This document shows positions 2,207 to 20,505 of a DNA stretch of 36,000 bases, in pieces; positions within the stretch are counted from its first letter, which is position 1, and each line of letters begins with the position of its first letter. Made by a program: the position numbers and the translations under genes. This stretch comes from Thermoprotei archaeon (GTDB taxonomy: Archaea > Thermoproteota > Methanomethylicia > Nezhaarchaeales > B40-G2): positions 1 to 36,000 of the forward strand of contig QMSI01000007.1 in NCBI GenBank assembly GCA_003649615.1, given 5' to 3'. The notes under the pieces were generated by a model, which ran no database searches, was not told where the DNA came from, and worked only from the letters and a program-made list of their open reading frames with translations.

Positions 2207-2210
2207 GAAC

Positions 2211-2858: not shown

Positions 2859-2866
2859 TTATATAG
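2859..2866 (+). promoter_or_regulatory. Putative TATA box for cdhC-cdhE
   Basis: TTATATAG, preceded by an A/G-rich BRE-like stretch (TTAAAG), lies about 52 bp before the cdhC start codon in the only sizeable spacer of the cdh cluster. Archaeal spacing would put transcription start near 2888-2892, leaving a short leader with the strong SD at 2900-2909. Assigned by eye from composition and position only. Confidence 0.4.
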
Positions 2867-2917
2867 TGCATAGCTCTTCAGCAACTCCGGTGTAAATTAA
2901 AGGAGGGGGTAGCGGGC

Positions 2918-4357: not shown

Positions 4358-4377
4358 AAAGCGCTGTGGGGGAGAGG

Positions 4378-4521
4378 ATGGCCGAGGAACTTAAACTCGA
4401 AGAACTTTTACTTTTACTTGATAAGGCTAAGGAGGTTGAGCTGGAGAACGTGGAGCTGGAAGCTGATCTCTTAGTCCTAGAGTTGCCTTCACCAACTAAG
4501 CAAGGTGGTAAGGGTGGCTAA
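4378..4521 (+). CDS. 47-residue ORF resembling the CdhD N-terminus
   Basis: Short ORF between cdhC and cdhD with ATG at 4378 directly after a GGGGGAGAGG SD. The product starts MAEELKLEELL and contains LDKAKEVELENVELEADL, which lines up without gaps with LDEAKELELRDVEILAEE at the start of CdhD; about 15 of 24 positions are identical across the longer segment. The same pattern, E-L-x2-[A/V]-x-[I/L]-x-[A/I]-[D/E]-x-[I/L]-V, occurs in the last 20 residues of CdhC. It ends in a Gly/Lys-rich tail and overlaps the likely cdhD start by 8 bp, so the two are probably translationally coupled. Function is unknown; the inference is a stand-alone docking or linker peptide of the CODH/ACS complex. It could also be a by-product of a local duplication. 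Confidence 0.65.
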   Translation: MAEELKLEELLLLLDKAKEVELENVELEADLLVLELPSPTKQGGKGG

Positions 4522-5815
4522 GGAAAAGTATCCTAAAGAAGTTAAGTCTTTTTTAGATACTCTAGACGAAGCGAAGGAGCTTGAGCTTAGGGACGTCGAG
4601 ATACTAGCTGAGGAACTTGTTTTACATTTAGTTCCTCAGGCAGCGCAGGCTGTACCTCCATCAGTACATCAAGCTCACGCGTACCTCGAGGAGGCAGTTA
4701 AACTACTTAGGCAGGCCTTAGGAATACCAGCGGCACCGCCTTCTGCCCCCTTAGCTCCGCCAAGTCCACCTGCACCTACCGTGCCTGTACCTGAGCTGGT
4801 GAAGACAGCCTTCGAGCCCCCAGTGTTCAGCTACCCAGGTAGCATAGCGGAGGTTCAGATAGGAGCTACGAGCACTGAGGGAGGGACAAGGGGTAAAGTG
4901 ATAAAGGTAGGCGGCGAGAAATGCCCTCCATTTTATAGGTTTGAGTTTGTACCTCCAAATAGGCCTGTAATAGCCTTAGACGTGTTCGACGTTCTCCCTC
5001 CACTCCCAAAGACCATTAAGAGCTACTATAGAGACGTGCTCAAGGACCATGTGGCTTGGGTTAACAGATGCATAGAGGAGTTCAAGGCAGACCTAGTAAC
5101 CCTACATCTCATAAGCACAGATCCTGCCATTGAAAACAGGCCAGCCGCTGAAGCAGCCAAGTTCGTTAGGAAAGTGCTCGACCAGATCGACATCCCCGTA
5201 ATCGTGGGTGGCTCAGGCAACCCAGAAAAAGACCTCGTAGTGTTCGAGGAGGTCTCCAAGGTAACGAGCGGAGAAAGGCTAGTCATGGCGTCGGTTACCA
5301 TAGACATGGATGTAGCTAAGGCGGCTCAGACGATAAGCCAGCATGGACACAACGTAATAGCACTGGCGTTCTTGGACATCAACCAAGTCAAGGAGCTTAA
5401 CAGGAAGCTGTTGGATGCCGGGATGCCTAAGGACCACATCATAACCGACCCATCCACAGGAGGCTTAGGCTATGGCATAGAGTACACGTTTAGCGTCATG
5501 GAGAGGATGAGGCTGGCTGGGCTCATGGGCGATGAAACCATGCAAGTCCCCATCTCCTGCGCCGCCACCAATGCTTGGGCTGCCAGAGAGGCATGGATGG
5601 AGATGGCTGAGTGGGGTCCTAGAGAGTACCGTGGACCACTATGGGAGATAACCACAGGGTTAGTTAACATGCTTGCGGGCGCCGACCTATTTATGATGCT
5701 CCACCCGCTCGCGGCCATGACGCTGAGGAAGATAGCTGAGGTACTAGCGAAGCCCAAAGTAGAGAAAGAATTGAAGGAGATAGCCTACGAGAAATGGGCT
5801 TCTGCTAAGCTGTAG
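4514..5815 (+). CDS. cdhD: CODH/ACS delta subunit (corrinoid protein small subunit)
   Basis: Corrinoid iron-sulfur protein small subunit; together with CdhE it carries the methyl group from tetrahydromethanopterin to the A-cluster of CdhC. The first 40 residues hold the short beta-rich motif shared with the preceding ORF. Next comes a Pro/Ala-rich linker (about residues 72-95) and then a TIM-barrel domain with typical segments such as RFEFVPPNRPVIALDVFD, VIVGGSGNPEKDL, TDPSTGGLGYG and PISCAATNAWAAREAW. Length is normal. GTG at 4514 is preferred because AGGTGG lies 5 bp upstream; GTG at 4505 would add three residues but has no SD. cdhE follows after 11 bp. Confidence 0.95.
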   Translation: MAKEKYPKEVKSFLDTLDEAKELELRDVEILAEELVLHLVPQAAQAVPPSVHQAHAYLEEAVKLLRQALGIPAAPPSAPLAPPSPPAPTVPVPELVKTAFEPPVFSYPGSIAEVQIGATSTEGGTRGKVIKVGGEKCPPFYRFEFVPPNRPVIALDVFDVLPPLPKTIKSYYRDVLKDHVAWVNRCIEEFKADLVTLHLISTDPAIENRPAAEAAKFVRKVLDQIDIPVIVGGSGNPEKDLVVFEEVSKVTSGERLVMASVTIDMDVAKAAQTISQHGHNVIALAFLDINQVKELNRKLLDAGMPKDHIITDPSTGGLGYGIEYTFSVMERMRLAGLMGDETMQVPISCAATNAWAAREAWMEMAEWGPREYRGPLWEITTGLVNMLAGADLFMMLHPLAAMTLRKIAEVLAKPKVEKELKEIAYEKWASAKL

Positions 5816-5826
5816 GAGGTGGCTTC

Positions 5827-7245
5827 ATGCCTAAGCTTCTAAGACCCTTAGACGTCTACCGACACCTACCTGGAACCAACTGTGGAGAGTGTGGCGAAGT
5901 AAACTGTATGGCCTTCGCTGCCAAGCTCATCGAGAGGCAAAAAGGCATAGAGGACTGCAAGCCTCTCTTTAAGCCCGAGTATAAGGCTAAGCTAGAGAAG
6001 CTATTGGAGGTCCTCCGACCGCCAGTAAAGGAGGTTACCATAGGGGTGGGCGATCGCGCTATAACCGTGGGCGGTAAAGTTTGCGTATATAGACATGAGC
6101 TGACTTGGTATAGGCCGACCGCGCTCTTCTTCGACGTAGATGATGAAATGCCCGAAGATGAGGCCATTAAGAAAGTTAAGTACGTTGAGGACTTCGAGCT
6201 TGAACGTATAGGCGTCAAGCTTAAGCTTAATGGCATTGCTGTGCGGTGCGTATCAGGCAGCCCTGAAAAGTTCGCTAAAAGGGTGGCGAAGATAACCGAG
6301 GTTAGTAACCTGCCTTTAATATTATGCTCGTATGATCCCAACGTCATGGAGGAGGCGCTAATAGTCGTAGGCTCCAAGAAACCGTTGATCTACGCCGCCA
6401 CCAAGGATAACTGGTCTGAGATGATAAAGCTGGCTTCTAAGTATAATTGTCCATTAGCCTTATCGGCACCGGGAGACCTTTCCATGCTTAAGTCGCTAGC
6501 AGCTACCGCTAGAAAAGCTGGGCTAGATGACCTGATCCTAGACCCTGGCACCTTCGTTGAGGGGGATTCCTTCGCCGAGACCATAAACATGTTCACAATG
6601 CTTAGAAGGGAAGCCATAGAGAAGGAGGATAAGGACGTAGGCTACCCGCTCATGGGCGTACCAGCAGCAGTATGGCTATCACCTGAAGGGGACGAAGTGG
6701 CCACTAAGATGAAAGAATGTTACGTAGCTAACGCCTTGATAACAAGGTTCGCTGACCTCTTAGTCATGCATACCATCGATATCTGGGCCCTCCTACCAAT
6801 CTTGGTCTGGAGACAGAACGTTTACACTGATCCACGAGTACCGTTATCGGTGAAGGCAGGGCTCTACGAGATAGGCCTAGTAGATGAAAAAACACCTATC
6901 TTCGTAACTGGGAACTCAGCCTTAACATACTTCTTAGTTAGGGGCGACGTGGAGAAGAGCGGTAAAGGCTACTTAATATGCGTGGACACGGAGGGCATAA
7001 GCGTAGAGTCATCAGTAGCCGGTAGGAGGTTTACGGCTGATAAAGTGGTTGAGGCGTTAAAGGAGGCTGGCATAGAGAATAAGGTTAAGCATAGGACCAT
7101 TATCATACCCGGCAAGGCTGCAAGGATAAGCGGCGAGCTCGAGGACCTACTACAGGGATGGAAGGTGTTCGTTGGCCCTAAGGAATCTTCCGGCATCCCT
7201 GACTTCATCGAGAAAGTGTGGAGCAAGGAAGTTAAGTTCGAGTAA
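5827..7245 (+). CDS. cdhE: CODH/ACS gamma subunit (corrinoid iron-sulfur protein large subunit)
   Basis: Large corrinoid iron-sulfur subunit that binds the cobamide and accepts the methyl group from methyl-tetrahydromethanopterin. The N-terminal [4Fe-4S] motif is visible as C19-x2-C22-x4-C27-x16-C44 in the context NCGECG-x2-NC. A TIM barrel occupies the middle (ALSAPGDL, LDPGTF). The C-terminal part (about residue 350 onward, with FVTGNSALTYFLVRGD) matches the corrinoid-binding domain. ATG at 5827 is preceded by GGAGGT at 5815-5820. It closes the cdh cluster; no CooC-type ATPase gene lies between cdhC and cdhD, unlike the Methanosarcina arrangement. Confidence 0.96.
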   Translation: MPKLLRPLDVYRHLPGTNCGECGEVNCMAFAAKLIERQKGIEDCKPLFKPEYKAKLEKLLEVLRPPVKEVTIGVGDRAITVGGKVCVYRHELTWYRPTALFFDVDDEMPEDEAIKKVKYVEDFELERIGVKLKLNGIAVRCVSGSPEKFAKRVAKITEVSNLPLILCSYDPNVMEEALIVVGSKKPLIYAATKDNWSEMIKLASKYNCPLALSAPGDLSMLKSLAATARKAGLDDLILDPGTFVEGDSFAETINMFTMLRREAIEKEDKDVGYPLMGVPAAVWLSPEGDEVATKMKECYVANALITRFADLLVMHTIDIWALLPILVWRQNVYTDPRVPLSVKAGLYEIGLVDEKTPIFVTGNSALTYFLVRGDVEKSGKGYLICVDTEGISVESSVAGRRFTADKVVEALKEAGIENKVKHRTIIIPGKAARISGELEDLLQGWKVFVGPKESSGIPDFIEKVWSKEVKFE

Positions 7246-10006: not shown

Positions 10007-10039
10007 TTTATATCGAGGATTTTGTGCCTTTGCACAAAA
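10007..10039 (+). promoter_or_regulatory. mrp promoter: TATA box plus TGTGC-N4-GCACA operator
   Basis: TTTATAT at 10007-10013 is followed 9 bp later by the inverted repeat TTTTGTGC-CTTT-GCACAAAA (10020-10039; 8-bp arms, 4-bp centre). The repeat covers the expected transcription start, the usual place for an archaeal repressor site. The half-sites and 4-bp spacing match the palindromes near 11846, 13902 and 20048-20086. Confidence 0.65.
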
Positions 10040-10057
10040 CTCTGAGGGAGGATTTCG

Positions 10058-10900
10058 ATGAGTGGAGAGGCAAAGTCAAGGCTTCAAGAGTTGGATGAGA
10101 AGATAAGGGCCTGGATGTCTAAAGTAAAACATAAAGTGGTTATACTGAGCGGTAAGGGCGGTGTAGGTAAGAGTACTGTAGCTGCTAATTTAGCGGTGGC
10201 GCTCGCTTGGAAGGGTAGGCCTAATTTAGTGGGCATACTAGATGCTGACATCACAGGTCCCAGCATACCAAAGATATTAGGCGTAAGAGGACAAGGTCTT
10301 ACGGGCGGTCCTCCAGGGATCTTCCCAGTAATGGGCCCGCTTGGGGTGAAGGTAGTTTCCATGGACTTCCTCCTCCCAAGCGACGAGACGCCTGTTATTT
10401 GGAGGGGCCCCATGAAATCTATGGCCATTAAACAGTTCCTCGCAGAGATTGTTTGGGGCAATCTTGAATACCTGCTTATCGACCTTCCTCCAGGCACAGG
10501 TGATGAAGCACTCACAGTGTTCCAAGCAATACCCGGTGTGGATGGCGCAGTAATAGTCACAATACCCTCAGACCTATCCCAACTCGTGGTGAAAAAAGCA
10601 GTCACCTTTACCCGTAACTTACAGACAAGGGTGCTAGGCATAGTCGAGAACATGAGCGGGTTTGTATGTCCTAACTGCGGCCACTACGTCGATATCTTCA
10701 GCTCAGGAGGTGGAGAGAGAATCTCGAGGGAAATGGGGGTTCCATTCTTAGGTAAGGTTCCGCTAGACCCTAGAGTTTGTGAAGCTTCTGATAAGGGAAT
10801 GCCCTTCATAGTCGAACATACAGACACCCCTGTGGCGAAAGCGTTCATGTCCATAGTAGAGAAACTAGAGAACATGTTAGAGAAACAGCGACCTTCCTAG
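10058..10900 (+). CDS. Mrp/NBP35-type Fe-S carrier ATPase
   Basis: P-loop ATPase of the Mrp/ApbC/NBP35 family, which bind and transfer [4Fe-4S] clusters to apoproteins as dimers. The deviant Walker A, GKGGVGKST, is at residues 32-40; Walker B (IDLPPGTGDE) is near 141-150. The cluster-binding CxxC is C204-P-N-C207 in GFVCPNCGH. Length of 280 is typical. ATG at 10058 follows GGGAGG. It is monocistronic, with its own TATA box and palindromic operator, so it probably belongs to the regulon shared with the NifX/MinD genes. Confidence 0.93.
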   Translation: MSGEAKSRLQELDEKIRAWMSKVKHKVVILSGKGGVGKSTVAANLAVALAWKGRPNLVGILDADITGPSIPKILGVRGQGLTGGPPGIFPVMGPLGVKVVSMDFLLPSDETPVIWRGPMKSMAIKQFLAEIVWGNLEYLLIDLPPGTGDEALTVFQAIPGVDGAVIVTIPSDLSQLVVKKAVTFTRNLQTRVLGIVENMSGFVCPNCGHYVDIFSSGGGERISREMGVPFLGKVPLDPRVCEASDKGMPFIVEHTDTPVAKAFMSIVEKLENMLEKQRPS

Positions 10901-11172
10901 CATTGATTAAGGTACACTTCCAAGACCTTTATCATAGAGCTTTCAAGCAGTAGAGGAGACTCCTAATAATAAACTCTATAGTCAACCCCCTTCTTTTACA
11001 AACATTATTTAACGGGCTTCTCCATGATATTAAGAATACATTACAATGGTGGGAGATCAGGGAACCTTTCGCGTACTTCGCGTCTAGGTTCCATTTGCGA
11101 TCGAACCACGGAGGTAAGGGCTTGGTCTGAGAAGGACAATGGACGCGAGTGTTCACTGTATTTTAAGCGTAG
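10901..11172. other. Non-coding spacer with an inverted repeat
   Basis: No convincing gene is seen. The ORFs here lack SD signals and family resemblance. GGAACCT (11061-11067) pairs with AGGTTCC (11086-11092) around an 18-nt loop that contains two copies of TTCGCGT. No tRNA or known RNA fold was recognised. Confidence 0.4.
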
Positions 11173-11741
11173 CTATGCCCTCCCATCTCCTATCACCTCG
11201 AAAATACCGTAGTATACTGTTTCTTCAGGCTCAGGAAACTCCACATAGAAGGTTATCTCGCCATACCTCTCAGCTATACAGACTGTTTCTGTAACGTTGC
11301 ATGTAGTCAGCGCTACAGCTACATCTAAGACCACTCCGTGAGGAGCGAGATCCTGTACTTCTCATAACACAGTCCATAATGTTTCAGCTGAAGGAGCATA
11401 AAGCACGGAGCCTCTTTCCTCGTAGTCTATGATCATAATCCATAATTCCACCAACAGAGAAACCTAGCGTCCTCAAAAGTGTTTGCTTTAATATACCCAA
11501 GAGGTGGAACAAACTTCTCATGAAAATACCTAGTAAACCCCCTCCCCATCCTTAATGTACCTTATCTCGTTTTCACTAATGCTTGCATGTACCCCCCGAT
11601 GAATATGAACTCAGCTTCAGAAGGACGTTTCAAGTGGTTCCTGTCCTACATCAGCTTCAGGTACTTGCTCAGACTCCATAGCAAAGTTTGCGCCGAAGGC
11701 TAAGAGGACTAAGGCCCAAAAACCACGCAGTTAGAGGCCAT
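11173..11741 (-). pseudogene. Decayed secreted-protein gene
   Basis: On the minus strand, coding-like sequence runs through three frames with stops. From ATG at 11741-11739 a signal peptide appears after one frameshift (RGFWALVLLAFGANFA), then SEQVPEADVGQEPLET. A second shift leads to EAEFIFIGGYMQALVKTR, an in-frame TAA (11562-11564), then MGRGFTRYFHEKFVPPLGYI and ANTFEDARF. A third shift leads to IMIIDYEERGSVLYAPSAET, an in-frame TGA (11362-11364), and finally VVLDVAVALTTCNVTETVCI and YGEITFYVEFPEPEETVYYG. At least three shifts and two stops make this a pseudogene rather than one sequencing error. Family not recognised; the ancestor was an exported protein of about 185 residues. Confidence 0.65.
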
Positions 11742-11783
11742 TAAGAAAAAAGATGTTTTAACCCATTGTTAGTTTCTATGGCA

Positions 11784-11804
11784 CTCCTCGACCTGTTCGA
11801 GGAG
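11784..11804 (+). terminator. Perfect 8-bp hairpin followed by a T-run
   Basis: CTCCTCGA-CCTGT-TCGAGGAG forms a perfect 8-bp stem with a 5-nt loop, followed 14 nt later by T7 (11819-11825) and then the promoter of the Trp-rich gene. It may insulate that promoter from read-through. The T-run is too distant for a classic intrinsic terminator. Confidence 0.3.
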
Positions 11805-11833
11805 AAAGGTTAATCATCTTTTTTTGCATAAAG

Positions 11834-11869
11834 TTTATATCCGAGTTTTCTGTGCATATGCACAGAAAA
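11834..11869 (+). promoter_or_regulatory. TATA box and perfect 24-bp palindromic operator
   Basis: TTTATAT at 11834-11840 is followed 10 bp later by the core TGTGCATATGCACA. The full palindrome extends to TTTTC and GAAAA flanks and is perfect over 24 bp (11846-11869). It overlaps the expected transcription start and ends against the SD of the next gene, so occupancy should block transcription. Confidence 0.7.
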
Positions 11870-11884
11870 GGAGGTGATGTCTAA

Positions 11885-12295
11885 GTGGCTTGGTGGGGTT
11901 GGGGTAGAGGATGGGGCTGGATGGGCCCCTGGCCAGGCAGAGGACCCTTCAGCTGGCTGCCTCCATGGATGAGGCCCGGCTGGGTATTTGGTAGAGGAGC
12001 TTGCTGGTGGCTCTTTGGCCCATGGATGTGGAGGTCTTGGTTCCTAGCGCCTTACTGGTGGTGAGGTATCATCGCCTACTATGGTTATGACCCTTGGAGC
12101 ACCACCTCTCAAAGCTATCAGCCTACTAGGTATAGCACAGATTACTACAGCGTCCCTTGGGGCTACTCATGGCTTTTCACGCCGCCCATGTTCCCCTTCA
12201 TGGCTTGGTGGCCCTTCGCAGGGTTCGCTCCATGGCTCTTAACGATGTGGATGTGGCCATACCTTTATCTATGGCCACCGATATGGTATTGGTGA
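11885..12295 (+). CDS. Trp-rich small-protein gene with an in-frame TGA at codon 60
   Basis: GTG at 11885 follows a near-ideal SD, GGAGGTGA (11870-11877). The first 59 codons encode a protein with 16 tryptophans (MAWWGWGRGWGWMGPW at the start, LAPYWW at the end), then TGA at 12062-12064. The same frame stays open for 76 more codons of the same Trp/Tyr/Pro/Phe-rich style (GIIAYYGYDPWS, MAWWPFAGFAPW, YLYLWPPIWYW) to a second TGA at 12293-12295. There is no in-frame start or SD for the second half until a Met near 12190. TGA is one base from the TGG that is so common here, so a recent nonsense mutation, sequence error or read-through are all possible. Composition resembles the Gly/Trp-rich leaders of DUF5320-type proteins that accompany NifX genes. 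It forms an operon with the next gene. Confidence 0.6.
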
Positions 12296-12307
12296 GGGAT
12301 ATAGCGA

Positions 12308-12616
12308 ATGAGCTACGGTTGGCAAAGAGGTAGAAGATGGGGTCCCTGGTGGATGCAGAGTTCACCTACTGGTCAACAAACGCCAACAGATCAGGGCTCT
12401 CCTCCACCACCATCACCGCCGCCCGGCTACGGCCCTCAATGGTGGTATTATCCGCCTCCGCCGCCCTACTACTATCCAACGCCTCCTCCATGGGCTCCGC
12501 CCAGCCCTGAAGAAGAGCTTAAAGCTCTCGAAGAGTACAAGAAATGGTTAGAGGAGGAGCTCAAGAGCGTAGAAGCCAGGATAAACGAACTCAAGAAAAG
12601 CCTAGGAGGCCCATAA
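12308..12616 (+). CDS. DUF5320-like small protein, Pro/Tyr-rich with C-terminal coiled coil
   Basis: 102-residue protein with a Gly/Arg/Trp-rich N-terminus (MSYGWQRGRRWGPWWM), a Pro/Tyr-rich middle (about residues 30-65, runs of P with YYPPPPP) and a charged helix from about 66 to 100 (PEEELKALEEYKKWLEEEL). This layout matches DUF5320-type proteins commonly found beside NifX/NifB-domain and MinD-ferredoxin genes in anaerobes; their function is unknown. ATG at 12308 follows a GGTGAGGG SD, 12 bp after the Trp-rich frame closes. It is probably controlled by the same palindromic operator. Confidence 0.75.
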   Translation: MSYGWQRGRRWGPWWMQSSPTGQQTPTDQGSPPPPSPPPGYGPQWWYYPPPPPYYYPTPPPWAPPSPEEELKALEEYKKWLEEELKSVEARINELKKSLGGP

Positions 12617-12684
12617 AGCCCCCCTTCTTTTATAGCCGTAAACTTATTTTTCATCCAGCTTCCTTTTAGCTAGGAGGACAATCT

Positions 12685-13014
12685 ATGTGGCGGTGGGGGC
12701 CTCGAGGCCGATTTCGTGGAAGGCCTGTGAAGCCTAGGTCCCTAGGCTTTGAGCCTCAGATCTTCCAGTTCATACCTTTCCCGCAAGACACCTCAAGGCC
12801 TCCACCACCCATTTACATGACCCCTGACGAGTTCGAAGCCTATAGGCTTGTGTTCTATGAAGGGTTAACGCAGGAGGAGGCTGCCAAGAGGATGAATATA
12901 TCTAGAGGGACTTTATGGCGCTGCCTAGAGAATGCCCGTAAGAAGCTGGCTACGATGCTGGCTGAGAAAAGACCTTTAATAGTAACACATGAAGTTCCAC
13001 CACAGGCTGTTTAG
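12685..13014 (+). CDS. DUF134 (UPF0251) DNA-binding protein
   Basis: Predicted HTH regulator of the COG1342 family. The N-terminus has the family pattern of basic residues and prolines (RGRPVKPR), then F-x-P, and a helix-turn-helix at about residues 50-90 (LTQEEAAKRMNISRGTLWRC). ATG at 12685 follows AGGAGG. In many anaerobes this family lies beside NifX-type and MinD-ferredoxin genes, as here. It is the nearest regulator gene to two of the TGTGC-N4-GCACA palindromes and so a candidate for their binding protein (inference). Confidence 0.88.
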   Translation: MWRWGPRGRFRGRPVKPRSLGFEPQIFQFIPFPQDTSRPPPPIYMTPDEFEAYRLVFYEGLTQEEAAKRMNISRGTLWRCLENARKKLATMLAEKRPLIVTHEVPPQAV

Positions 13015-13024
13015 GCGAAGAGGC

Positions 13025-13891
13025 TTGACGGAGAACGGAGACCTTGTTAAAGTAGAGGTAGTAGTGTTAGTTGATGATAACGCACAAAGCGGTTTACACG
13101 CAGCTCACGGCTTCGCCGCGTTAATTAACTGCTTTTACAAGAAGGAAGAGGTTAAGATACTGTTCGATACTGGACCTGACACCACGTTATTAAACAATGC
13201 CCTAGCAATGAAGACAGAGCTAGGAAAAGTTGATGTAATCGCGCTGAGCCATGGCCACTACGACCACACAGGTGGACTACTAGACGCGATCAAGACTATC
13301 GGGAGAAGGATACCTATAGTTGTAGATCCTGAAGCCTTCAGTACGAAGCTAGCCTATAAACCTGCCTTAACCTACATAGGAACTCCCTTCCAGCCTTGGC
13401 AAATAGAAGCAGCTGGAGGAACCTTAGTGTTAACAGTTAAACCTACTCTCTTGGCTAGAGGAGTAACGTTGACTGGAAGGATAGAGAGGAGGATAGATGA
13501 GCCCAGCGTTAAAGGGCTTTACGTCGTCAAGGATGGAGTTATTGTGAAGGACGAGGTACCGGATGACCGCGCCCTTATCTTAAATGTTAACGGGAGGATA
13601 ATGATTGTGACTGGATGTGCTCATGCCGGTGTCTTGAACCTGGTGGATGAAGCATTGAGGCTTACAGGAGCAAACTCCATAGCTATCCTCATAGGAGGAC
13701 TACACCTATTCAACGTCCCTAGGAGGAAGGCTGAGGACATCGCCAGGGAGCTTAAGAGGATGAACGTGAGTAAGGTAGCTCCCTGCCACTGTACAGGCGA
13801 AAGAGGGTTAGAGGAGCTTAGAAAAGTCTTCGGCGACTCCTGCATACCTTTGAAAGCTGGTTCCACGTACTGGCTTAGCTTTTTTGCGTAA
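13025..13891 (+). CDS. Metallo-beta-lactamase-fold protein, COG1237 type
   Basis: Metal-dependent hydrolase-fold protein of the group containing the methanogen protein annotated as 7,8-dihydropterin-6-methyl-4-(beta-D-ribofuranosyl)aminobenzene-5'-phosphate synthase. The metal motif S-H-G-H-Y-D-H-T-G-G is near residues 75-84 of this start. Further ligands are likely in GCAHAG and GGLHLF, and PCHCTG is near the C-terminus. Activity here is uncertain: a pterin-related role would suit an organism making methanopterin, but the location beside DUF134 and NifX genes is equally consistent with a redox or metal role. TTG at 13025 (AGAGG close by) avoids the overlap with DUF134; ATG at 12989 would add 12 residues but overlaps by 26 bp and lacks an SD. 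Confidence 0.85.
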   Translation: MTENGDLVKVEVVVLVDDNAQSGLHAAHGFAALINCFYKKEEVKILFDTGPDTTLLNNALAMKTELGKVDVIALSHGHYDHTGGLLDAIKTIGRRIPIVVDPEAFSTKLAYKPALTYIGTPFQPWQIEAAGGTLVLTVKPTLLARGVTLTGRIERRIDEPSVKGLYVVKDGVIVKDEVPDDRALILNVNGRIMIVTGCAHAGVLNLVDEALRLTGANSIAILIGGLHLFNVPRRKAEDIARELKRMNVSKVAPCHCTGERGLEELRKVFGDSCIPLKAGSTYWLSFFA

Positions 13892-13901
13892 TCCTTATAG
13901 C

Positions 13902-13920
13902 TTTCTGTGCATATGCACGT
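13902..13920 (+). promoter_or_regulatory. TGTGCATATGCAC operator ahead of the NifX-MinD operon
   Basis: TTTCTGTGCATATGCACGT matches the palindrome at 11846 with one half-site base changed at the right edge. CTTATAG lies 5 bp upstream. A weaker resemblance, GGTGCGTATGCATG, follows at 13929-13942, and an A/T-rich TATA-like stretch (ATTATTTATTAG) follows near 13958-13969. Which TATA element serves the operon is uncertain. Confidence 0.55.
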
Positions 13921-14009
13921 AAGTAAAGGTGCGTATGCATGCATTCGCGGCCTACGCATTATTTATTAGATCATTCAGCAAGAAAAGAAGTGTTTAGGGA
14001 GGGTTGAGG

Positions 14010-14840
14010 ATGAGGATAGCTGTACCAAGTTATAGCCCTGGCGGTTTAAGTGCTGAGGTATGTCCTCACTTTGGACGCGCAGAAGTGATCACGGTAGTGG
14101 AGGTTGAAGGCGCTAAGCCGGTGAAGGTAGAGGTCGTAGACAGTGGGGGGCAGCATTACGGTTATCCCCGTAGGCCTGCTGAAGCTTTAACGTCGCTAAA
14201 CGTAGACGCCGTCGCAGTTAAAGGACTAGGAGTCAAAGCCCTGGAGTGGCTAAACCAAGCTGGAATCAAGGTCTACCGAGTAACTGCAGATAGGGTCGAG
14301 GAGGCCATCAACCAGATCTTGAGAGGCGAACTTCAGGAAATGACAGCTGAAGAAGCCTGCGCGGGTGGATATGGCTTAGAAGAACAAGGTTTTACCTCGG
14401 CTTGGAGACCTCCCTTCCCAGGGCCTATGAGGCCATGGCCTACCCCTCCAGTAACCCCTCCTCAAGTACCTATGCCAGCTCAGAGACCTCTCGAAGTGTC
14501 AGGTAGAGTTAAGGTAGCGGTAGCGTCGCAGGGTCAGGGAGGGCTTGACGATCTGGTTTCACCGATGTTCGGTAGATGTCCAGTCTTTACGGTGATCGAA
14601 ATCGAAGGTGGAGAGGTGAAGAGCATAGAGACCTTGCCCAACCAAGCTATGTATGCTCCTCACGGAGCTGGGATAGCGGCTGTCCAGGCGATAGCTAACA
14701 TGGGAGTTAGGATAGCGATAGCAGGTAGGTTTGGCCCATGGGCTTATCAGGCTATGACACAGTTCGGCATCCAGCCGATAACCGTGCCTCCAGGAATAAA
14801 GGTTAGAGATGCTATCAATAGGTATGTGCTCGGAAGGTAG
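14010..14840 (+). CDS. Tandem NifX/NifB-type cofactor-binding protein
   Basis: Two dinitrogenase-cofactor-biosynthesis (COG1433, ribonuclease-H-like) domains in one chain: about residues 1-110 (MRIAVPSYSPGG, CPHFGRAEVITVVEVEG) and 163-276 (VKVAVASQGQGGLDD, PMFGRCPVFTVIEIEGGE). A Pro-rich linker joins them (residues about 128-162, with PFPGPMRPWPTPP). Most archaeal relatives are single-domain proteins near 120 residues. Such proteins can bind Fe-S or Fe-Mo clusters; no nitrogenase genes are in the window, so a general Fe-S carrier role is more likely. ATG at 14010 is preferred because GGGAGGG ends 6 bp before it; TTG at 14004 sits on the SD. It forms an operon with the two MinD genes. Confidence 0.88.
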   Translation: MRIAVPSYSPGGLSAEVCPHFGRAEVITVVEVEGAKPVKVEVVDSGGQHYGYPRRPAEALTSLNVDAVAVKGLGVKALEWLNQAGIKVYRVTADRVEEAINQILRGELQEMTAEEACAGGYGLEEQGFTSAWRPPFPGPMRPWPTPPVTPPQVPMPAQRPLEVSGRVKVAVASQGQGGLDDLVSPMFGRCPVFTVIEIEGGEVKSIETLPNQAMYAPHGAGIAAVQAIANMGVRIAIAGRFGPWAYQAMTQFGIQPITVPPGIKVRDAINRYVLGR

Positions 14841-14845
14841 ACGTC

Positions 14846-15745
14846 TTGGAGCTAAGGGAATTAGTAGTGGCTAGTGGTAAGGGGGGTACAGGGAAAACCA
14901 CTGTAGCTTCCTCCCTCGCCTACCTCCTGCACCAAAGGTTAAAGCTAGTCGCCGTAGACGCAGATGTCGACGCCCCCGACCTCATACTAGCGCTTGGAGG
15001 AGGGGAAAAACTTGAAGAGCGTAAAATAGAGGCCTCCGAGAAAGCTAGGGTAAACGACAATCTATGTAATGGCTGTGGAGCCTGCGAATCCACCTGTGTT
15101 TATGGAGCCATCAGGGTAGAGGACGGCATAGCCAAGGTATACGACTTTCTATGTGAAGGTTGCGGCGCCTGTAGCTTAGTTTGTCCTAATGGAGCCATAC
15201 GCATAGAGCCATACGTAACCGGCGTGTTGGTGGCTCAACGCACGCGACACAGGTTCGTAACCATTACCGGTAGGCTGAGGGCTGGTGAACACAACTCAGG
15301 GAAACTGGTATCTGCAGCTAAGGAGATGGCCAGAGAGAGAGCAAAAGTGGAGGGAGCAGAGCTTCTCATTGTTGATGCTGCACCTGGCATAGGCTGCCCA
15401 GTTATAGCTTCACTGTCAGGAGCTAGCTATGTCATAGCGGTGGCCGAGCCTACTCCTACGTCCAAGAGGAACCTTGAGAGGTTAGTGGCGGTAGCTCGCC
15501 ACTTTAACGTACCTGTCGGGCTTGTGCTCAATAAAGCTGAGCTATCAAGTGACTACGCTAGGAAGCTAGAGGAGTGGGCGCTCTTCAACCTAAAGGTCCC
15601 TATATTAGTAGAGCTGCCTGTAGATTATGAAGCAGTGAGGGCACTGGCAAACATGAAGACACCTCCAGAGCTTAATCCCAAAGCTAGGATAAGCGTGGCC
15701 TTGAGAAGCTTAGCTGATCGCGTAGAAGAGATAGTTGGGCTTTAA
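14846..15745 (+). CDS. MinD-superfamily ATPase with inserted 2x[4Fe-4S] ferredoxin domain (copy 1)
   Basis: COG1149-type P-loop ATPase. Deviant Walker A GKGGTGKT is at residues 11-18. A ferredoxin insertion carries C74-x2-C77-x2-C80-x3-C84 and C103-x2-C106-x2-C109-x3-C113. Walker B is LLIVDAAPGIGCPV. These proteins occur in pairs next to NifX-domain genes and are thought to couple ATP hydrolysis to Fe-S cluster or electron handling; biochemistry is sparse. The TTG start lies 5 bp after the NifX stop with GGAAGG upstream. The second copy follows after 12 bp, suggesting a heterodimer (inference). Confidence 0.92.
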   Translation: MELRELVVASGKGGTGKTTVASSLAYLLHQRLKLVAVDADVDAPDLILALGGGEKLEERKIEASEKARVNDNLCNGCGACESTCVYGAIRVEDGIAKVYDFLCEGCGACSLVCPNGAIRIEPYVTGVLVAQRTRHRFVTITGRLRAGEHNSGKLVSAAKEMARERAKVEGAELLIVDAAPGIGCPVIASLSGASYVIAVAEPTPTSKRNLERLVAVARHFNVPVGLVLNKAELSSDYARKLEEWALFNLKVPILVELPVDYEAVRALANMKTPPELNPKARISVALRSLADRVEEIVGL

Positions 15746-15757
15746 GGTGAGAAAAGC

Positions 15758-16654
15758 TTGACGTTTAGGCTGGCAGTTACCGGTGGTAAGGGAGGCACGG
15801 GTAAGACCGTTGTAGCGGTCAACTTAGCGGCAGCGCTAAGCGCTAGGGGCTTTAAGGTGTTATTGGCTGATGGTGATGTGGATGGCCCTTGCACCTCCAT
15901 CCTCATCAACGCTAAGCTTACTGAAAGCAAGCCCGTTAAGATCTTTAAGCCTTTGATAGATCGAGACTTATGTAAACCCTGCGGAAGCTGCGCCAAGGTT
16001 TGCCGTGAACACGCCTTAGCCTTTATGGAAGGGGCTCCTCCGATACTCTTCGAGGAACTATGCTCAGGCTGTAAGGCCTGTCAGATAGTCTGTAGCTATG
16101 GAGCCATTAAAGAAGACTCAAAGACGATAGGGTTCCTCCACAGTGCTCAAGCAGGACCTATCAGGTTAAAGATAGGTGAACTAAACCCTGGGGAAGCCAG
16201 ATCGCCTATTGTAGCGAGGGAGCTTAAACTAGAGGTGGATGAGGAGCTTAAGAGAGGAGACTACGACGTAATGATCATAGACACTTCCCCAGGCCTACAT
16301 AACGCCGTTGTCCAGGCTTTATGGGGAGTCGATTTAGCGCTCGTGGTTACAGAGCCTACCCCTCTCGGACTTAATGATCTCTTCTTAATACTAGACCTAT
16401 TGAGCCAGCTAGGCATAGAAGCCTGGGTCGTCCTCAATAGAGCAGACATCCCTGGAGGAATTAGGGAAAAAATACTGGAAGCCTGTAGACTTAGGGGCAT
16501 TGAGGTTGCCGTAGAGGTGCCCTACGACGAAGAGCTTTTCAAAGCCTACGTCAGAGGCGAGCCCCTCATAAAGTCGTCTATACATACCCCTGCCCGCCAG
16601 GCCCTTATGGACTTAGCTTCAAAGGTAGAGGCAAGGATTAAGCCCTCATCATAG
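15758..16654 (+). CDS. MinD-superfamily ATPase with inserted 2x[4Fe-4S] ferredoxin domain (copy 2)
   Basis: Second COG1149-type ATPase and a clear paralogue of the preceding gene. Walker A GKGGTGKT is at about residues 10-17, and Walker B is MIIDTSPGLHNAV. Ferredoxin cysteines are C72-x2-C75-x2-C78-x3-C82 and C102-x2-C105-x2-C108-x3-C112. The TTG start follows a GGTGAG SD. Its 3' end overlaps the convergent zinc-ribbon gene by 17 bp. The two copies share fold and cluster spacing but differ in loop sequence, consistent with specialised partners. Confidence 0.92.
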   Translation: MTFRLAVTGGKGGTGKTVVAVNLAAALSARGFKVLLADGDVDGPCTSILINAKLTESKPVKIFKPLIDRDLCKPCGSCAKVCREHALAFMEGAPPILFEELCSGCKACQIVCSYGAIKEDSKTIGFLHSAQAGPIRLKIGELNPGEARSPIVARELKLEVDEELKRGDYDVMIIDTSPGLHNAVVQALWGVDLALVVTEPTPLGLNDLFLILDLLSQLGIEAWVVLNRADIPGGIREKILEACRLRGIEVAVEVPYDEELFKAYVRGEPLIKSSIHTPARQALMDLASKVEARIKPSS

Positions 16655-16808
16655 GTGTGCCGCACCTAGGACATAGCTGCTGTCTACAAGGCATGCCAGG
16701 CATATGCGCAGTCCTATAGCCACAGCGTGGACAGATACAATCTCCTGGAGGGCCAACCCTTCTTCCTAAACCTCTACCTGCTCCTCGTCCAAATCCTCCG
16801 CTAGACAT
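16638..16808 (-). CDS. Small Gly/Arg-rich zinc-ribbon protein
   Basis: 56-residue protein: a Gly/Arg-rich N-terminus (GGFGRGAGRGLGRR), then two CxxC knuckles, C-I-C-P-R-C-G and C-P-R-C-G-T-P-M, with MPGMPC between them. This is the zinc-ribbon or rubredoxin-like arrangement of small proteins that recur near NifX/MinD-ferredoxin genes. ATG at 16808 is preferred; a TTG at 16838 would add 10 residues. TTTAAAAAC on the minus strand at about 16852-16860 could be its TATA box. Function unknown; metal binding is likely. Confidence 0.7.
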   Translation of the reverse strand: MSSGGFGRGAGRGLGRRVGPPGDCICPRCGYRTAHMPGMPCRQQLCPRCGTPMMRA

Positions 16809-16927
16809 AAACTTCACGAGAAACTTGTTGTCCCGCAAGATAAAGCTACCGTTTTTAAATGTACATACATTCCTTCAGCCTACATTCCATCGCGCGGTGT
16901 AAAGCCAAGCCATGGAGCCTAGATACA

Positions 16928-17443
16928 TCATGTTAGTCGTTTTTGAGAGCCCACGCCTGACACGGACGATGCTTTAATCAACAATTTACAACTCTTCCAA
17001 GACGATGGGAAGAGCGCTAGCGGCAATAGTCCAAGCACAACGTCTGGCCTTAGCAGGTCCTCAACGACGGAATAATCCGCCTCCTCGCCAATGAGGACGA
17101 CAAGTACACCCACATCTGCTATATTGGCTATGCAGATGAGGAGCTGCAGTACAAGTAGGCTTAAGCCTACAACACATGCCATTAGTAGAGATGCTACACC
17201 TTTAGCCTCGCCTAGGCCCCAGTAGGCCGAGGAAAGGAAGAGAAGAGCAACAGCGAGTAAAGCTAGCCCAAGGCCTAAGTCACATGGTACCAGTAACCAA
17301 ACCATCTCCTCCACGGCTACGAGGCCTAGTGGAAAGGTAGAGACGAACCAGTTATGCAACAAGACTAGTGTAAAGAAAAGGTATGAACAGCCCGCCAATA
17401 GGGAAGCTATCCTTAAAATTTTTTGGCGTGCTTCAACAACCAC
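16928..17443 (-). CDS. Membrane protein at the end of the feo operon
   Basis: 171-residue protein with about four to five hydrophobic segments (for example LLAGCSYLFFTLVLL, LGLGLALLAVALLFL, GLSLLVLQLLICIA and VVLGLLPLALF). No family recognised. The GTG start at 17443 directly abuts the feoB stop codon, so it is translated with the Feo genes and may be an accessory of ferrous iron uptake, possibly a FeoB partner (inference from position only). The last 20 residues are soluble and Ser/Lys-rich. Confidence 0.65.
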   Translation of the reverse strand: MVVEARQKILRIASLLAGCSYLFFTLVLLHNWFVSTFPLGLVAVEEMVWLLVPCDLGLGLALLAVALLFLSSAYWGLGEAKGVASLLMACVVGLSLLVLQLLICIANIADVGVLVVLIGEEADYSVVEDLLRPDVVLGLLPLALFPSSWKSCKLLIKASSVSGVGSQKRLT

Positions 17444-19459
17444 CTAGCCCACCCCGATCAACGCACCTATGCCAACAATCACGAGAGCAACAGTATAGGC
17501 CAACATTAATTCATAGATTACAGCCAAGCCTGCGTACCTCCAACCGAGCTCACTCTTGAGGGTAGCCACGGTTACCAGGCACGGTACATACAGTAGGACA
17601 AAGGCCATGTAGGCGAAGCCGGAAACTGGTGTGAAGTATCCAGCCAAGATCCCTGTCAAGCCCTCTTCACCAACTCCGTAGAGTATGGCCATGGCGCCCA
17701 CCACTACCTCCTTGGCCACGAAGCCGAAGAATAAAGCCGCAGTTTCCCTCCAGCCCCATCCCATCGGGGCGAAGATAGGCTTCAAAGAATATCCAAGGAC
17801 ACCTACCCAGCTCGCCTCTATCAGCTCTGGGTCTTCGAAGGCAGCTGGCCCTAGCCAGCCACCAGGCCCTGTTACACAGAGGACCCACACTAGTATCGTG
17901 GCTAATAATATCACGCCACCAGCCTTGTAGAGGAACCTCTTCGTCCGCTCCCACGTCTTAATGCCGACGTTCTTAACGGTGGGCGCCATATATGGGGGCA
18001 ATTCCATGACGAAGCCTGCTGAAGGGCCCTTAAACAACAACTTCCTGAACAGTAAACCTAGCAGCAGCGCGAAGATGAAGCCCATGAGATACATGCTCAG
18101 CACAGCAGAGCCCTCGTACCCAGTGAATAAAGCCCCAGCTATGACTAGGTAGACAGGTAGGCGAGCGCTACATGAAATGCAAGGCGCCACCAAGGCAGTG
18201 GTCTTGCGGTCGTTTTCATCTTCAATGGGCCTAGCCGCCATGATGGCGGGGATGTTGCAACCTATGCCTAATATCAGTGGAATAATTGAGCGCCCTGTGA
18301 GCTTGAATTTATGCATGATTTTATCAACAACGAAGGCTGCCCGTGCCATGTAACCTACGTCCTCTAAAGCTGAAAACGCCAAGAAGAGGAAGGCTATGGG
18401 CGGAAGGAAGACCATTATAGCGCCTAGCCCCGTCACAACACCATCTGCTAGGAAGGACTGAAGTACCTCAGGCATGGGTACACTGAGTACCGCCTCGTAA
18501 AGTGCACACCCAAAAAACCAATCTATTAAGTCTGAGAGCGGAGCGGAGACGGCGAAAGCAAACTGGAACATCATGTAGAATACTGCCAAGGCGACGGGGA
18601 TCCCTAAGACCTTATGAGTGACCACCATGTCGACGACGTCGGTCATGGTTAAAACTCTTGGCCTAACCGCAGCAATGCAAGCTTGTGCTATCCGTGAGGC
18701 CGCTTCATATCTACGTTCAACAATCCACCCTTCGAGGTCCACCCCCATCTCCTTCTCGAGCTCGGCTTTAAGTTCTCTAGCTAAAGAGACAATTCTCTCA
18801 CCTGAAGGAATCCGTTTAAACCTCTCCTCCACGTTTGCGTCTCCTTCAAACAGCTTGATAGCAGCCCAGCGAGGCTCATATAGTCGTTTAAGGTCAGATT
18901 CCTGCTCAATGAGGGCTCTAAGCTTCTCGATGGCTTCCTCAACCCTACCATAGCTCACCACCCTCCTCTTCTTCGGTGTCTCTTTAGCGACCAAGGTTTT
19001 TTTGAGCTCAGCCAGCCCTTGACGCTTAATAGCCACCGTGGGTATTACGGGGACCCCGAGGAGTTCGGATAGCTTAGCAGAATCGATATTATAGCCTTCA
19101 CTTTCGGCGATGTCAACCATATTTAACGCTACTACAACCCTTACGCCCATCTCAATGAGGGATAAGGTTAGGTATAGGTTGCGTTCTAGGCTGCATGCAT
19201 TGACAATGTTGACTACGACGTCAGGCTTCTCTTCAACTATGAAGTTTCTAGCTATGAGCTCATCAACGCTATAGGCTGTCAGGCTGTAGATGCCTGGAAG
19301 GTCTACAACTTCGACGTCTAACCCGTCGATGCGGGTCTTGCCCACCTTCTTCTCTACCGTTACTCCAGGCCAATTACCAACCCAAGCCCTACCACCAGTT
19401 AGTTCGTTGAAGATCACGGACTTCCCTACGTTAGGGTTCCCTGCAAGTGCGACCTTCAA
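17444..19459 (-). CDS. feoB: Ferrous iron transporter FeoB
   Basis: Fe2+ uptake permease with an N-terminal GTPase domain. G1 GNPNVGKS is at residues 7-14, G2 GVTVE near 32-36, G3 DLPG at 53-56 and G4 NMVD at 113-116. The membrane domain from about residue 285 has the Gate-type segments, including CISCSARLPVYLVIAGA and PCLVTVATLKSELGW. The length of 671 is normal. The start is TTG at 19459, overlapping the feoA stop as TTGA. It sits in feoA-feoA-feoB-membrane protein and is predicted to be repressed when iron is plentiful through the DtxR-like operator at 19999-20027. Confidence 0.96.
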   Translation of the reverse strand: MKVALAGNPNVGKSVIFNELTGGRAWVGNWPGVTVEKKVGKTRIDGLDVEVVDLPGIYSLTAYSVDELIARNFIVEEKPDVVVNIVNACSLERNLYLTLSLIEMGVRVVVALNMVDIAESEGYNIDSAKLSELLGVPVIPTVAIKRQGLAELKKTLVAKETPKKRRVVSYGRVEEAIEKLRALIEQESDLKRLYEPRWAAIKLFEGDANVEERFKRIPSGERIVSLARELKAELEKEMGVDLEGWIVERRYEAASRIAQACIAAVRPRVLTMTDVVDMVVTHKVLGIPVALAVFYMMFQFAFAVSAPLSDLIDWFFGCALYEAVLSVPMPEVLQSFLADGVVTGLGAIMVFLPPIAFLFLAFSALEDVGYMARAAFVVDKIMHKFKLTGRSIIPLILGIGCNIPAIMAARPIEDENDRKTTALVAPCISCSARLPVYLVIAGALFTGYEGSAVLSMYLMGFIFALLLGLLFRKLLFKGPSAGFVMELPPYMAPTVKNVGIKTWERTKRFLYKAGGVILLATILVWVLCVTGPGGWLGPAAFEDPELIEASWVGVLGYSLKPIFAPMGWGWRETAALFFGFVAKEVVVGAMAILYGVGEEGLTGILAGYFTPVSGFAYMAFVLLYVPCLVTVATLKSELGWRYAGLAVIYELMLAYTVALVIVGIGALIGVG

Positions 19460-19758
19460 GCCTCCTTCACCCTGACTAAAACCTTCAAGGCCATGCCAAG
19501 GCTAATCAAAAGCCTCCAAGATCGACCAAAGCCATTAGAGAGAGGCCCTACGAAACAACGACACGAACTTTCCTTAGAGATAGATGAAACCCTCTCTATA
19601 ATTACAGGTCCAGGCCCTGCTCTAACCACCCTCAACACCGAACCCTTTACTATCCCCAGCTCAGCCATCCTACGCTGAATGCCATGACCAGCCTTGACGT
19701 CCTCCACGATGACGTAGGTGCCTTCAGGTGCAAAAGCTAGAGGAAAGCTATGCATCAA
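19456..19758 (-). CDS. feoA: FeoA-like SH3 protein with internal insertion (second FeoA)
   Basis: FeoA-family protein that would act with FeoB. The first half is classic (V-x-AGHGIQRRMAELGIVKGS, GPGPVIIE). The family end motif appears as LISLGMALKVLVRVKE, but about 20 extra residues (RVSSISKESSCRCFVGPLSN and some following) separate the two halves, where relatives have a short turn. It may be a real insertion or a pair of compensating frameshifts. It starts at TTG 19758 or ATG 19755, overlapping the upstream feoA stop, and overlaps the feoB start by 4 bp. Confidence 0.82.
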   Translation of the reverse strand: MMHSFPLAFAPEGTYVIVEDVKAGHGIQRRMAELGIVKGSVLRVVRAGPGPVIIERVSSISKESSCRCFVGPLSNGFGRSWRLLISLGMALKVLVRVKEA

Positions 19759-19982
19759 CTCACTTCCCTCACGATGACGAGTGAAGCTTCATCTTTCCTG
19801 ATAGACAAGTTGTAACCTCTCACTTCAACTTCAATAGGATCGCCTAGGGGGGCAAGTCGAACCACCTTTAGCCTGGTTTTGGAAACTAAGCCTAAGTCCA
19901 TAAACCTCCTCTTTACTGGGCCTGAGCCCTCGACCTTAATGACCTCGTAGTAGCAGCCGGTCTTAGCCTCCGATAGCCTCAT
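19755..19982 (-). CDS. feoA: FeoA
   Basis: 75-residue cytosolic SH3-fold protein required for FeoB-dependent iron uptake. It carries the usual pattern: G-x-G-P-V-KRRFMDLGLVSKTRLKVV, DPIEVEVRGYNLSIRKDEA and a V-I-V-R-E end. ATG at 19982 has a CAGGGGGGC stretch upstream as SD. First gene of the feo operon, transcribed away from dtxR with about 95 bp between the two start codons. Confidence 0.93.
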   Translation of the reverse strand: MRLSEAKTGCYYEVIKVEGSGPVKRRFMDLGLVSKTRLKVVRLAPLGDPIEVEVRGYNLSIRKDEASLVIVREVS

Positions 19983-19998
19983 GACCAGCCCCCCTGTT

Positions 19999-20027
19999 TT
20001 AGGCTAGCCTAACTTAGGCTTGCCTAA
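19999..20027 (-). promoter_or_regulatory. Tandem DtxR/IdeR-like operator of the feo operon
   Basis: TTAGGCTAGCCTAA (19999-20012) is a perfect palindrome, and TTAGGCTTGCCTAA (20014-20027) repeats it with one central mismatch, 15 bp away. Half-sites TTAGG and CCTAA match the known DtxR/IdeR box style. The pair covers the expected minus-strand start site (TATA at 20032-20038), so iron-bound DtxR should repress feo. Confidence 0.7.
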
Positions 20028-20031
20028 CTCC

Positions 20032-20038
20032 TATATAA
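20032..20038. promoter_or_regulatory. Shared TATA box of the divergent feo and dtxR promoters
   Basis: TATATAA (with flanks CTATATAAGC) is near-symmetric and lies midway between feoA and dtxR. Transcription would start near 20009 on the minus strand and near 20060 on the plus strand, and each of these positions lies inside a different operator type. Whether one element serves both directions is inferred. Confidence 0.5.
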
Positions 20039-20047
20039 GCATTATTA

Positions 20048-20086
20048 TGGGCATATGCACAAAACAAAAATATGTGCATATGCACA
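20048..20086 (+). promoter_or_regulatory. Two TGTGC-N4-GCACA operators over the dtxR start
   Basis: TGGGCATATGCACA (20048-20061, one mismatch) and TGTGCATATGCACA (20073-20086, perfect) are 25 bp apart centre to centre. They cover the predicted transcription start and the likely dtxR ATG at 20080. Same motif as at 10020, 11846 and 13902. Confidence 0.7.
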
Positions 20087-20505
20087 GAAAAAATTCAGCC
20101 TTGCCGCGGACCCTTACTCCTAAGCTTGAGAATTACTTAAAAGCGATATATTTCATCCAGCGCAGAGAAGGTAAGGCTACCGTGAAAAAGATAGCCTTGG
20201 CTCTAGGGGTTAAAGTGCCGAGTGCTAGCGAGGCTGTCAAGCGACTTATGAGGGCTGGTATGATAAGGCATGAGAACTATGGCGAGGTCAGCCTCACCGA
20301 AAAAGGCATGAAAGTAGTCAAGGAATTGGAGGAACGCTACCGAAGCATACTCAGCTTCCTGAACGAAGTTTTGGGAATAGACCAAGACCTAGCAGCAAAG
20401 GAAAGCTGTATACTGGAACATCTCATAAGCAAGGAGACAGCGTTAAGGATGGCTTCGCTAACCAGGAAACTAAAGGAGAAGCGTGCTTTAAAGTCGTGCT
20501 CATAG
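20080..20505 (+). CDS. DtxR-family metal-dependent repressor
   Basis: Winged-helix regulator of the DtxR/MntR family; with metal bound it represses iron or manganese uptake genes. The HTH spans about residues 12-75 (LENYLKAIYFI, LGVKVPSASEAVKRL, then the wing HENYGEVSLTEKG). In the dimerisation helices C110-x2-E113-H114 matches the DtxR primary site Cys102-Glu105-His106, but the position of DtxR Met10 is Asn18, and the ancillary ligands His79, Glu83 and His98 are replaced by Tyr, Leu and Ala. There is no C-terminal SH3 domain (141 residues). ATG 20080 lies inside an operator, about 20 nt after the predicted transcription start, without an SD; TTG 20101 is an alternative. Divergent to feo, its probable target. 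Confidence 0.85.
   Translation: MHRKNSALPRTLTPKLENYLKAIYFIQRREGKATVKKIALALGVKVPSASEAVKRLMRAGMIRHENYGEVSLTEKGMKVVKELEERYRSILSFLNEVLGIDQDLAAKESCILEHLISKETALRMASLTRKLKEKRALKSCS

Follow-up and report, generated by a model that had tools for sequence, protein, structure and literature searches.

A palindrome at iron-sulfur and iron uptake gene promoters of a Thermoprotei archaeon is the predicted operator of a DUF134 protein

In Desulfovibrio, the operons that encode orange-protein (ORP) complexes are controlled by sigma54, the enhancer-binding protein DVU2106 and IHF (PMC3897727, PMC6345978), and in Pyrococcus furiosus the NifX-family protein IssA stores thioferrate and has a tail rich in Trp, Gly, Arg and Pro (PMC5524996). 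We analyzed 36,000 nucleotides from a Thermoprotei archaeon (contig QMSI01000007.1, positions 1 to 36,000; hereafter the window) in which Mrp, two MinD-ferredoxin ATPases and a NifX/ORP-type protein are clustered as in the Desulfovibrio ORP operons, and in which a palindrome, TGTGC-N4-GCACA, recurs at the promoters of these and other iron-related genes. We find that this palindrome is very probably the operator of a DUF134 protein encoded nearby, a predicted repressor-like regulator of iron-sulfur genes. Control here would differ from that of the Desulfovibrio operons in running through a DUF134 operator, and in an archaeon. No sigma54/DVU2106-type gene was noticed among the open reading frames (ORFs) of the window, and no genome-wide search for one was made. 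As in IssA, a NifX domain is found together with Trp/Gly/Arg/Pro-rich sequence in a setting of anaerobic iron-sulfur chemistry, here partly as separate small proteins; unlike IssA, the NifX protein of the window consists of two NifX domains with a Pro-rich linker and has no cationic Gly/aromatic tail. The Trp/Gly/Pro-rich proteins of the DUF5320 type resemble the IssA tail in composition, which is a lead only.

The proposed regulator belongs to DUF134 (UPF0251, COG1342; PF02001), a family annotated as unknown or as predicted DNA-binding only and named hypothetical protein in NCBIfam. Searches of the open-access literature for DUF134, UPF0251, COG1342, DUF5320 and the motif core GCATATGC returned nothing relevant and no description of a DUF134 function, operator or regulon; they did not cover subscription papers or regulon databases, where an earlier description may exist. 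The initial annotation, made from the sequence alone, likewise knew of no DUF134 binding motif, and none turned up in these searches. The predicted control resembles that by DtxR/IdeR/MntR and IscR/Rrf2 in that an operator-binding, apparently autoregulated protein would govern iron-sulfur and iron uptake genes in the manner of a repressor. It is unlike them in fold and operator, and archaeal DUF134 proteins have no known metal site.

The recurrence of one palindrome at mrp, at a row of Trp-rich and DUF5320 genes, at NifX-MinD-MinD and twice at dtxR, as first noted in the initial annotation, is borne out by a pattern search of the window: TGTGCNNNNGCACA is exact at 10023-10036, 11851-11864 and 20073-20086, with one-mismatch copies at 13906-13919 and 20048-20061. 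The spacing of 9-10 bp after TTTATAT reported for two of these loci is also correct, TTTATAT at 10007-10013 ending 9 bp before the mrp site and TTTATAT at 11834-11840 ending 10 bp before the site at 11851. A 22-column motif model, trained on DNA upstream of DUF134 genes, gives the five sites 19.5-24.1 bits, and the rest of the window is everywhere below 11 bits; 1.44 Mb of shuffled window sequence yields nothing of 17 bits or more (maximum 13.7). The sites match the archaeal form of the operator, ATTTTGTGCATATGCACAAAAT. The boxes and the gene of the proposed regulator are:

10019..10040, + strand: putative DUF134 box, mrp promoter, ATTTTGTGCCTTTGCACAAAAC, 21.5 bits
11847..11868, + strand: putative DUF134 box, Trp-rich/DUF5320/DUF134 gene row, TTTCTGTGCATATGCACAGAAA, 23.5 bits
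12685..13014, + strand: DUF134 protein, proposed regulator, recognition helix SRGTLWR (PF02001, E 3.5e-20)
13902..13923, + strand: putative DUF134 box, NifX-MinD-MinD promoter, TTTCTGTGCATATGCACGTAAG, 19.5 bits
20044..20065, + strand: putative DUF134 box upstream of dtxR, just upstream of the feoA TATA, ATTATGGGCATATGCACAAAAC, 20.3 bits
20069..20090, + strand: putative DUF134 box, 25 bp from the first dtxR box and over the probable dtxR ATG (20080), AATATGTGCATATGCACAGAAA, 24.1 bits

The exact box and DUF134 genes were searched for independently in 121 and then in 398 genomes of the same phylum. The exact box is rare (67 copies in the 121 genomes, about 0.35 per Mb), and in 13 genomes of five families it lies at most 250 bp upstream of DUF134 (G103, G115, G156, G280, G097, G349, G191, G290, G260, G250, G084, G067 and G080), where about 0.01 such cases are expected. 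The distance is about 85-125 bp in many genomes; in some others, the exact box is found just past the DUF134 3' end. When every 5-mer palindrome with gaps of 0-14 was enumerated upstream of 83 archaeal and bacterial DUF134 genes, TGTGC-4-GCACA ranked first with nine loci, including those of Margulisiibacteriota (L104), Anaerocolumna (L105) and Saganbacteria (L119), and the next different motifs had four. A symmetric expectation-maximization motif finder, applied clade by clade to 220 bp of upstream DNA and not seeded with the motif of the initial annotation, returned ATTtTGTGcatatgCACAaAAT for archaea (log-likelihood ratio 385 versus 42-49 for shuffles), aTTATgAGCATATGCTcATAAt for Desulfobacterota (219 versus 45-51), aTTATtGaCATATGtCaATAAt for Clostridia (213 versus 39-52) and aTTATGaGCATATGCtCATAAt for other bacteria (132 versus 34-43). 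All four motifs fall in one register with the 22-bp layout ATTnTnnrCATATGynnAnAAT. On held-out halves, the motif was recovered in 36 of 93 archaeal upstream regions versus 2 of 354 control windows, in 20 of 50 versus 2 of 196 for Clostridia and in 14 of 28 versus 0 of 112 for Desulfobacterota. The models also carry across domains, the Desulfobacterota model for example matching 11 of 93 archaeal regions versus 0 of 177 controls. DUF134 genes themselves are present in 145 of the 398 sampled genomes of the archaeal phylum and in 64 of 148 genomes sampled from the class to which Anaerocolumna belongs. In two Bacteroidales loci (L110, L112), they appear directly behind a tRNA-like sequence (GGGGTGTAGCGCAGTTGG...CACCCCGACC).

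Which protein reads the box is best judged from the recognition helix. The DUF134 protein at 12685 scores 72.8 bits to PF02001 (cut-off 27) and has both the conserved R-P-x-K-x-R N-terminus and the SRxT recognition helix, which across the family follows the pattern S/A-R-X1-T-X2-X3-X4. Among 75 non-redundant protein-site pairs, with helices permuted within clades 300 times, X1 covaries with half-site base 5 from the centre (mutual information 1.11 versus 0.58, z 7.0, 0/300) and with base 4 (z 5.9, 0/300), and X4 covaries with base 6 (0.61 versus 0.19, z 9.0, 0/300). Helices with GT.WR in archaea or GT.QR in bacteria pair with TGTGC (archaea, Clostridia, Margulisiibacteriota and Saganbacteria); QT.GN pairs with TTGGC/TTAGC in genomes labelled Chlorobi, Aminicenantes, Proteobacteria and Desulfobacterota; and PT.[ST]R pairs with TGAAC in Omnitrophota, Bacteroidales and Desulfobacterota. 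Together with the motif layout shared by four clades, this covariation supports the proposal of the initial annotation that one regulator serves these promoters.

The predicted structure of DUF134 (AlphaFold2, pLDDT 87) contains a helix-turn-helix (HTH) with helices at 47-58, 63-69 and 74-94. In Foldseek it superposes on sigma region 4 (0.7 Å to SigR, 5fgm; 0.9 Å to SigmaE on -35 DNA, 2h27) and on the DeoR DNA-binding domain (0.6 Å), with E-values of 0.03-0.2 that are modest because the domain is small. No solved DUF134 structure is present in the copy of the structure database that was searched. DUF134 is not a sigma70-type factor in full, since this 109-aa protein has the region 4 HTH fold and region 2 is without a Pfam match; it also differs from sigma factors as a stand-alone protein of about 110 aa, with a unique N-terminal arm, on a two-fold operator. 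We take X1 and X4 to correspond to E585 and Q589 of sigma70, two residues that contact the -35 element. The Clostridial half-site TTGACAT contains the -35 consensus TTGACA.

We next asked which genes the box precedes. In the window, the 22-bp box stands upstream of the DUF134 operon, DUF5320-type genes and NifX, in the following setting:

10058..10900, + strand: mrp, NUBPL/ApbC-type iron-sulfur carrier P-loop NTPase (PF10609, E 1e-95; 342 bits to NCBIfam MrpORP over the Mrp part, under the cut-off of 450)
11885..12064, + strand: 59-aa Trp/Pro/Gly-rich protein (ORF, no Pfam match; homologues follow boxes in many archaeal loci)
12308..12616, + strand: DUF5320 protein, Pro/Trp-rich, with a C-terminal coiled-coil part (PF17253, E 8e-8)
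12989..13891, + strand: metallo-beta-lactamase-fold hydrolase, overlapping the end of the DUF134 gene (PF00753)
14004..14840, + strand: NifX/orange-protein-type protein with two PF02579 domains (Pfam search), the only PF02579 gene found in the genome
14846..15745, + strand: MinD-type ATPase with an inserted ferredoxin domain (Pfam, NCBIfam)
15758..16654, + strand: second MinD-type ATPase with an inserted ferredoxin domain (Pfam, NCBIfam)
17444..19982, - strand: feoA-feoA-feoB, Fe(II) uptake (FeoB by PF02421; FeoA by position and homology to the FeoA genes of L086 and L158)
19999..20027, no strand: two DtxR-type boxes, TTAGGCTAGCCTAA and TTAGGCTTGCCTAA, on the feoA side of a shared TATATA
20080..20505, + strand: dtxR/mntR-type metal-dependent regulator (PF01325/PF02742; best NCBIfam match MntR, under its cut-off)

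Directly after the first Trp-rich gene, an open frame at 12065-12295 (+) would encode a Trp/Tyr/Pro-rich protein of about 76 aa (GIIAYYGYDPW...IWYW). It has no ATG, GTG or TTG near its start, and a similar second gene in L055 has normal start codons; the frame may use ATC as an unusual start, be reached by readthrough of the TGA at 12062, or reflect a sequencing error.

Across archaeal loci, most boxes of at least 17 bits precede DUF134, Trp-rich/DUF5320, NifX, mrp or feoA genes. Exact 14-mers with low model scores lie mostly inside ORFs; the many such copies in relatives were discarded as chance. Clostridial boxes stand in front of one NifX gene and of DUF5320 genes, six of which were tested (E 1e-17 to 1e-30). 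Beyond the window, NifX boxes are found in L071, L072, L095, L254 and L262. At mrp, a box is present in 3 of 19 DUF134-positive genomes examined (this one, G016 and G043) and in a Hecatellales record (L071), and in none of 11 DUF134-negative genomes examined. At dtxR, G028 has a weak counterpart of 15.6 bits; its dtxR and DUF134 genes are neighbours. The conservation in relatives that the initial annotation had named as a test therefore holds for DUF134, DUF5320 and NifX and is partial for mrp and dtxR. Since the boxes at the latter two are patchy, we limit the predicted core regulon common to Archaea and Bacteria to DUF134, the DUF5320-type Trp/Gly/Pro-rich proteins and NifX; mrp, feo and dtxR would be lineage-specific additions.

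A further target class emerges outside the window, where the genome was covered by pattern searches followed by model scores for single loci. The fourth exact copy in the genome (C53:717; 22.7 bits) lies 41 bp upstream of a gene for a 117-aa Trp/Tyr-rich protein with a THKDC...PVDPN...CP N-terminus, and genes with this type of N-terminus also follow boxes in L012 and L192. Short proteins without a Pfam match that begin THKxCxxFxxGxCxxxGxPVDPNxPxCPxF, each after a DUF134 box, were seen in L004, L012 and L192, and possibly form a new small family.

Several observations weigh against the boxes being operators of a DUF134 repressor. A high-scoring box directly upstream is lacking for about 60% of archaeal DUF134 genes, although some of these have one at a neighbouring operon, and the boxes at mrp and dtxR are only patchily conserved. 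The covariation is partly confounded by relatedness within clades, which the permutation leaves partly in, and an autoregulated gene can travel with its own operator. At feoA, finally, the box precedes TATA, where binding would be compatible with activation as well. On the other side, boxes at DUF5320 and NifX genes take the form of the resident DUF134 class, so inheritance of a single promoter does not explain the pairing. On balance, the sequence comparisons support the operator, autoregulation, the targets and a direct contact between DUF134 and DNA as predictions; we infer repression, the dimer state and the signal.

Repression is suggested by where the boxes lie. At the mrp, Trp-rich, DUF5320, NifX and DUF134 promoters, TATA mostly starts 17-23 bp upstream of the box centre, so that the box covers the expected start region, as the initial annotation had stated for three loci. 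In bacteria, the boxes appear by eye to lie in the -35/-10 spacer with one arm over the -10 (L106, L114, L117). Both positions fit repression. As the operator is two-fold symmetric, DUF134 would bind as a dimer, with one sigma-region-4-like HTH on each half-site of the 22-bp inverted repeat, and the basic RPxKxR arm conserved at its N-terminus may serve to read the A/T-rich flanks. Bound between the TATA box and the transcription start, it would block RNA polymerase and so repress mrp, dtxR, NifX-MinD-MinD and the operon in which DUF134 is encoded along with the Trp-rich and DUF5320 proteins. Boxes often come in tandem, 24-25 bp apart, as does the dtxR pair. The second dtxR box spans the probable ATG at 20080, so a dtxR transcript that starts about 25 bp after TATA would have a very short leader or none.

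The alternative that survives best, although we consider it unlikely, is that DUF134 acts mainly as an activator, or as both a repressor between TATA and start and an activator upstream of the feoA TATA. It draws on the feoA geometry, in which TATA follows the box centre by 15-17 bp both in the window and in L158. Most other promoters have the box downstream of TATA, and the bacterial boxes appear to reach over the -10 from the -35/-10 spacer; both placements are typical of repression. We therefore favor repression by DUF134 as the general mode, with an effect at feoA that may differ from that at other promoters.

The initial annotation had left the choice of regulator between the DUF134 protein and DtxR. 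That the DtxR protein encoded at 20080 binds the palindrome, autoregulates and controls the iron-sulfur genes is suggested by the two boxes at its own promoter and by a gene set that looks iron-related. We regard this as very improbable, as DtxR seems to have an operator of its own. The palindrome TTAGGCNNGCCTAA, which we take to be of DtxR type from established knowledge of DtxR/IdeR operators, is different from the TGTGC box and occurs exactly twice in the genome, as TTAGGCTAGCCTAA and TTAGGCTTGCCTAA, both between feoA and dtxR. The shared TATATA separates these from the TGTGC boxes, which makes them two different operators. A TTAGGCNNGCCTAA-type box recurs beside a DUF134 box at feoA in L086 and L158, as in the window (19999-20065), and the order in the window and L158 is DUF134 box, TATA, DtxR box. 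Moreover, in G007 and G008 DUF134 or Trp-rich genes carry boxes, and no DtxR match was found there at 1e-12, and the motif follows the residues of the DUF134 helix. DtxR was thus ruled out as reader of the TGTGC motif, and the DUF134 half of the earlier proposal is carried by the boxes upstream of its genes, the clade motifs and the covariation. DtxR would work through its own feoA boxes, and the feo-dtxR promoter would link the two regulators. A second gene of the DtxR family, 42% identical, is present in the genome (L352; G000:C26:8322-8684); a DtxR-type box, TTAGGTTAACCTAA, precedes the match by about 134 bp.

Even less probable is that the palindromes are DNA or RNA structures (terminators, hairpins or attenuators) or mobile repeats. 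In its favor, they are perfect or near-perfect inverted repeats. Against it, the rest of the window has none of them, their positions are close to or upstream of the expected start, and they recur with different half-sites, each fitting the helix of the local DUF134. That a loose motif recurs by chance is the least credible explanation; it has on its side the scan with up to two mismatches that the initial annotation had proposed, which found 8 copies in the window versus a shuffled mean of 11, and is refuted at the level of the model by the exact-motif, model-score and phylogenetic results. The loose motif, whose count is not above chance, is therefore uninformative. The exact 14-mer occurs four times in the 1.58-Mb genome versus zero for the reversed control, with three of the four copies in the window. 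Allowing one mismatch raises the genome count to 11, versus 10 for the reversed control; 5 of the 11 lie within the 10-kb stretch discussed here, and the model gives only -12.7 to 2.9 bits to the five one-mismatch copies found elsewhere in the genome.

What DUF134 senses is suggested by its targets and its fusions. Two Desulfobacterota proteins and one Clostridial protein (L234, L241, L196) fuse DUF134 to NifX (PF02579; E 1e-14 to 1e-19), a candidate sensor architecture, and other DUF134 proteins are fused to zinc-ribbon-like tails. Given these NifX fusions and the NifX, Mrp and Feo targets, our best guess, and the most likely input, is iron, sulfide or iron-sulfur status, which NifX-type partners might relay. 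More tentatively, at somewhat less than even chances, we propose that DUF134 is an unrecognized regulator family of Bacteria and Archaea that governs anaerobic iron-sulfide handling (DUF5320-type proteins, NifX/ORP, Mrp and Feo), responds to iron-sulfur status, whether by direct sensing or by way of NifX-type partners or fused domains, and recognizes its operators with a sigma-region-4 helix that follows a simple residue-base code extending to the TTGACA half-sites of Clostridia. For a widespread family without an assigned function, our analysis predicts an operator, autoregulation, a set of targets and a specificity code that can be read. The DUF5320 proteins, equally function-less in annotation, are tied to NifX/ORP-type iron-sulfur proteins in both domains of life, and in three archaeal loci two distinct operators, of DtxR type and DUF134 type, share the feo promoter region. 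Just upstream of the region described here, Cys-rich ORFs at 8-7245 resemble, by eye, a CO dehydrogenase/acetyl-CoA synthase cluster.

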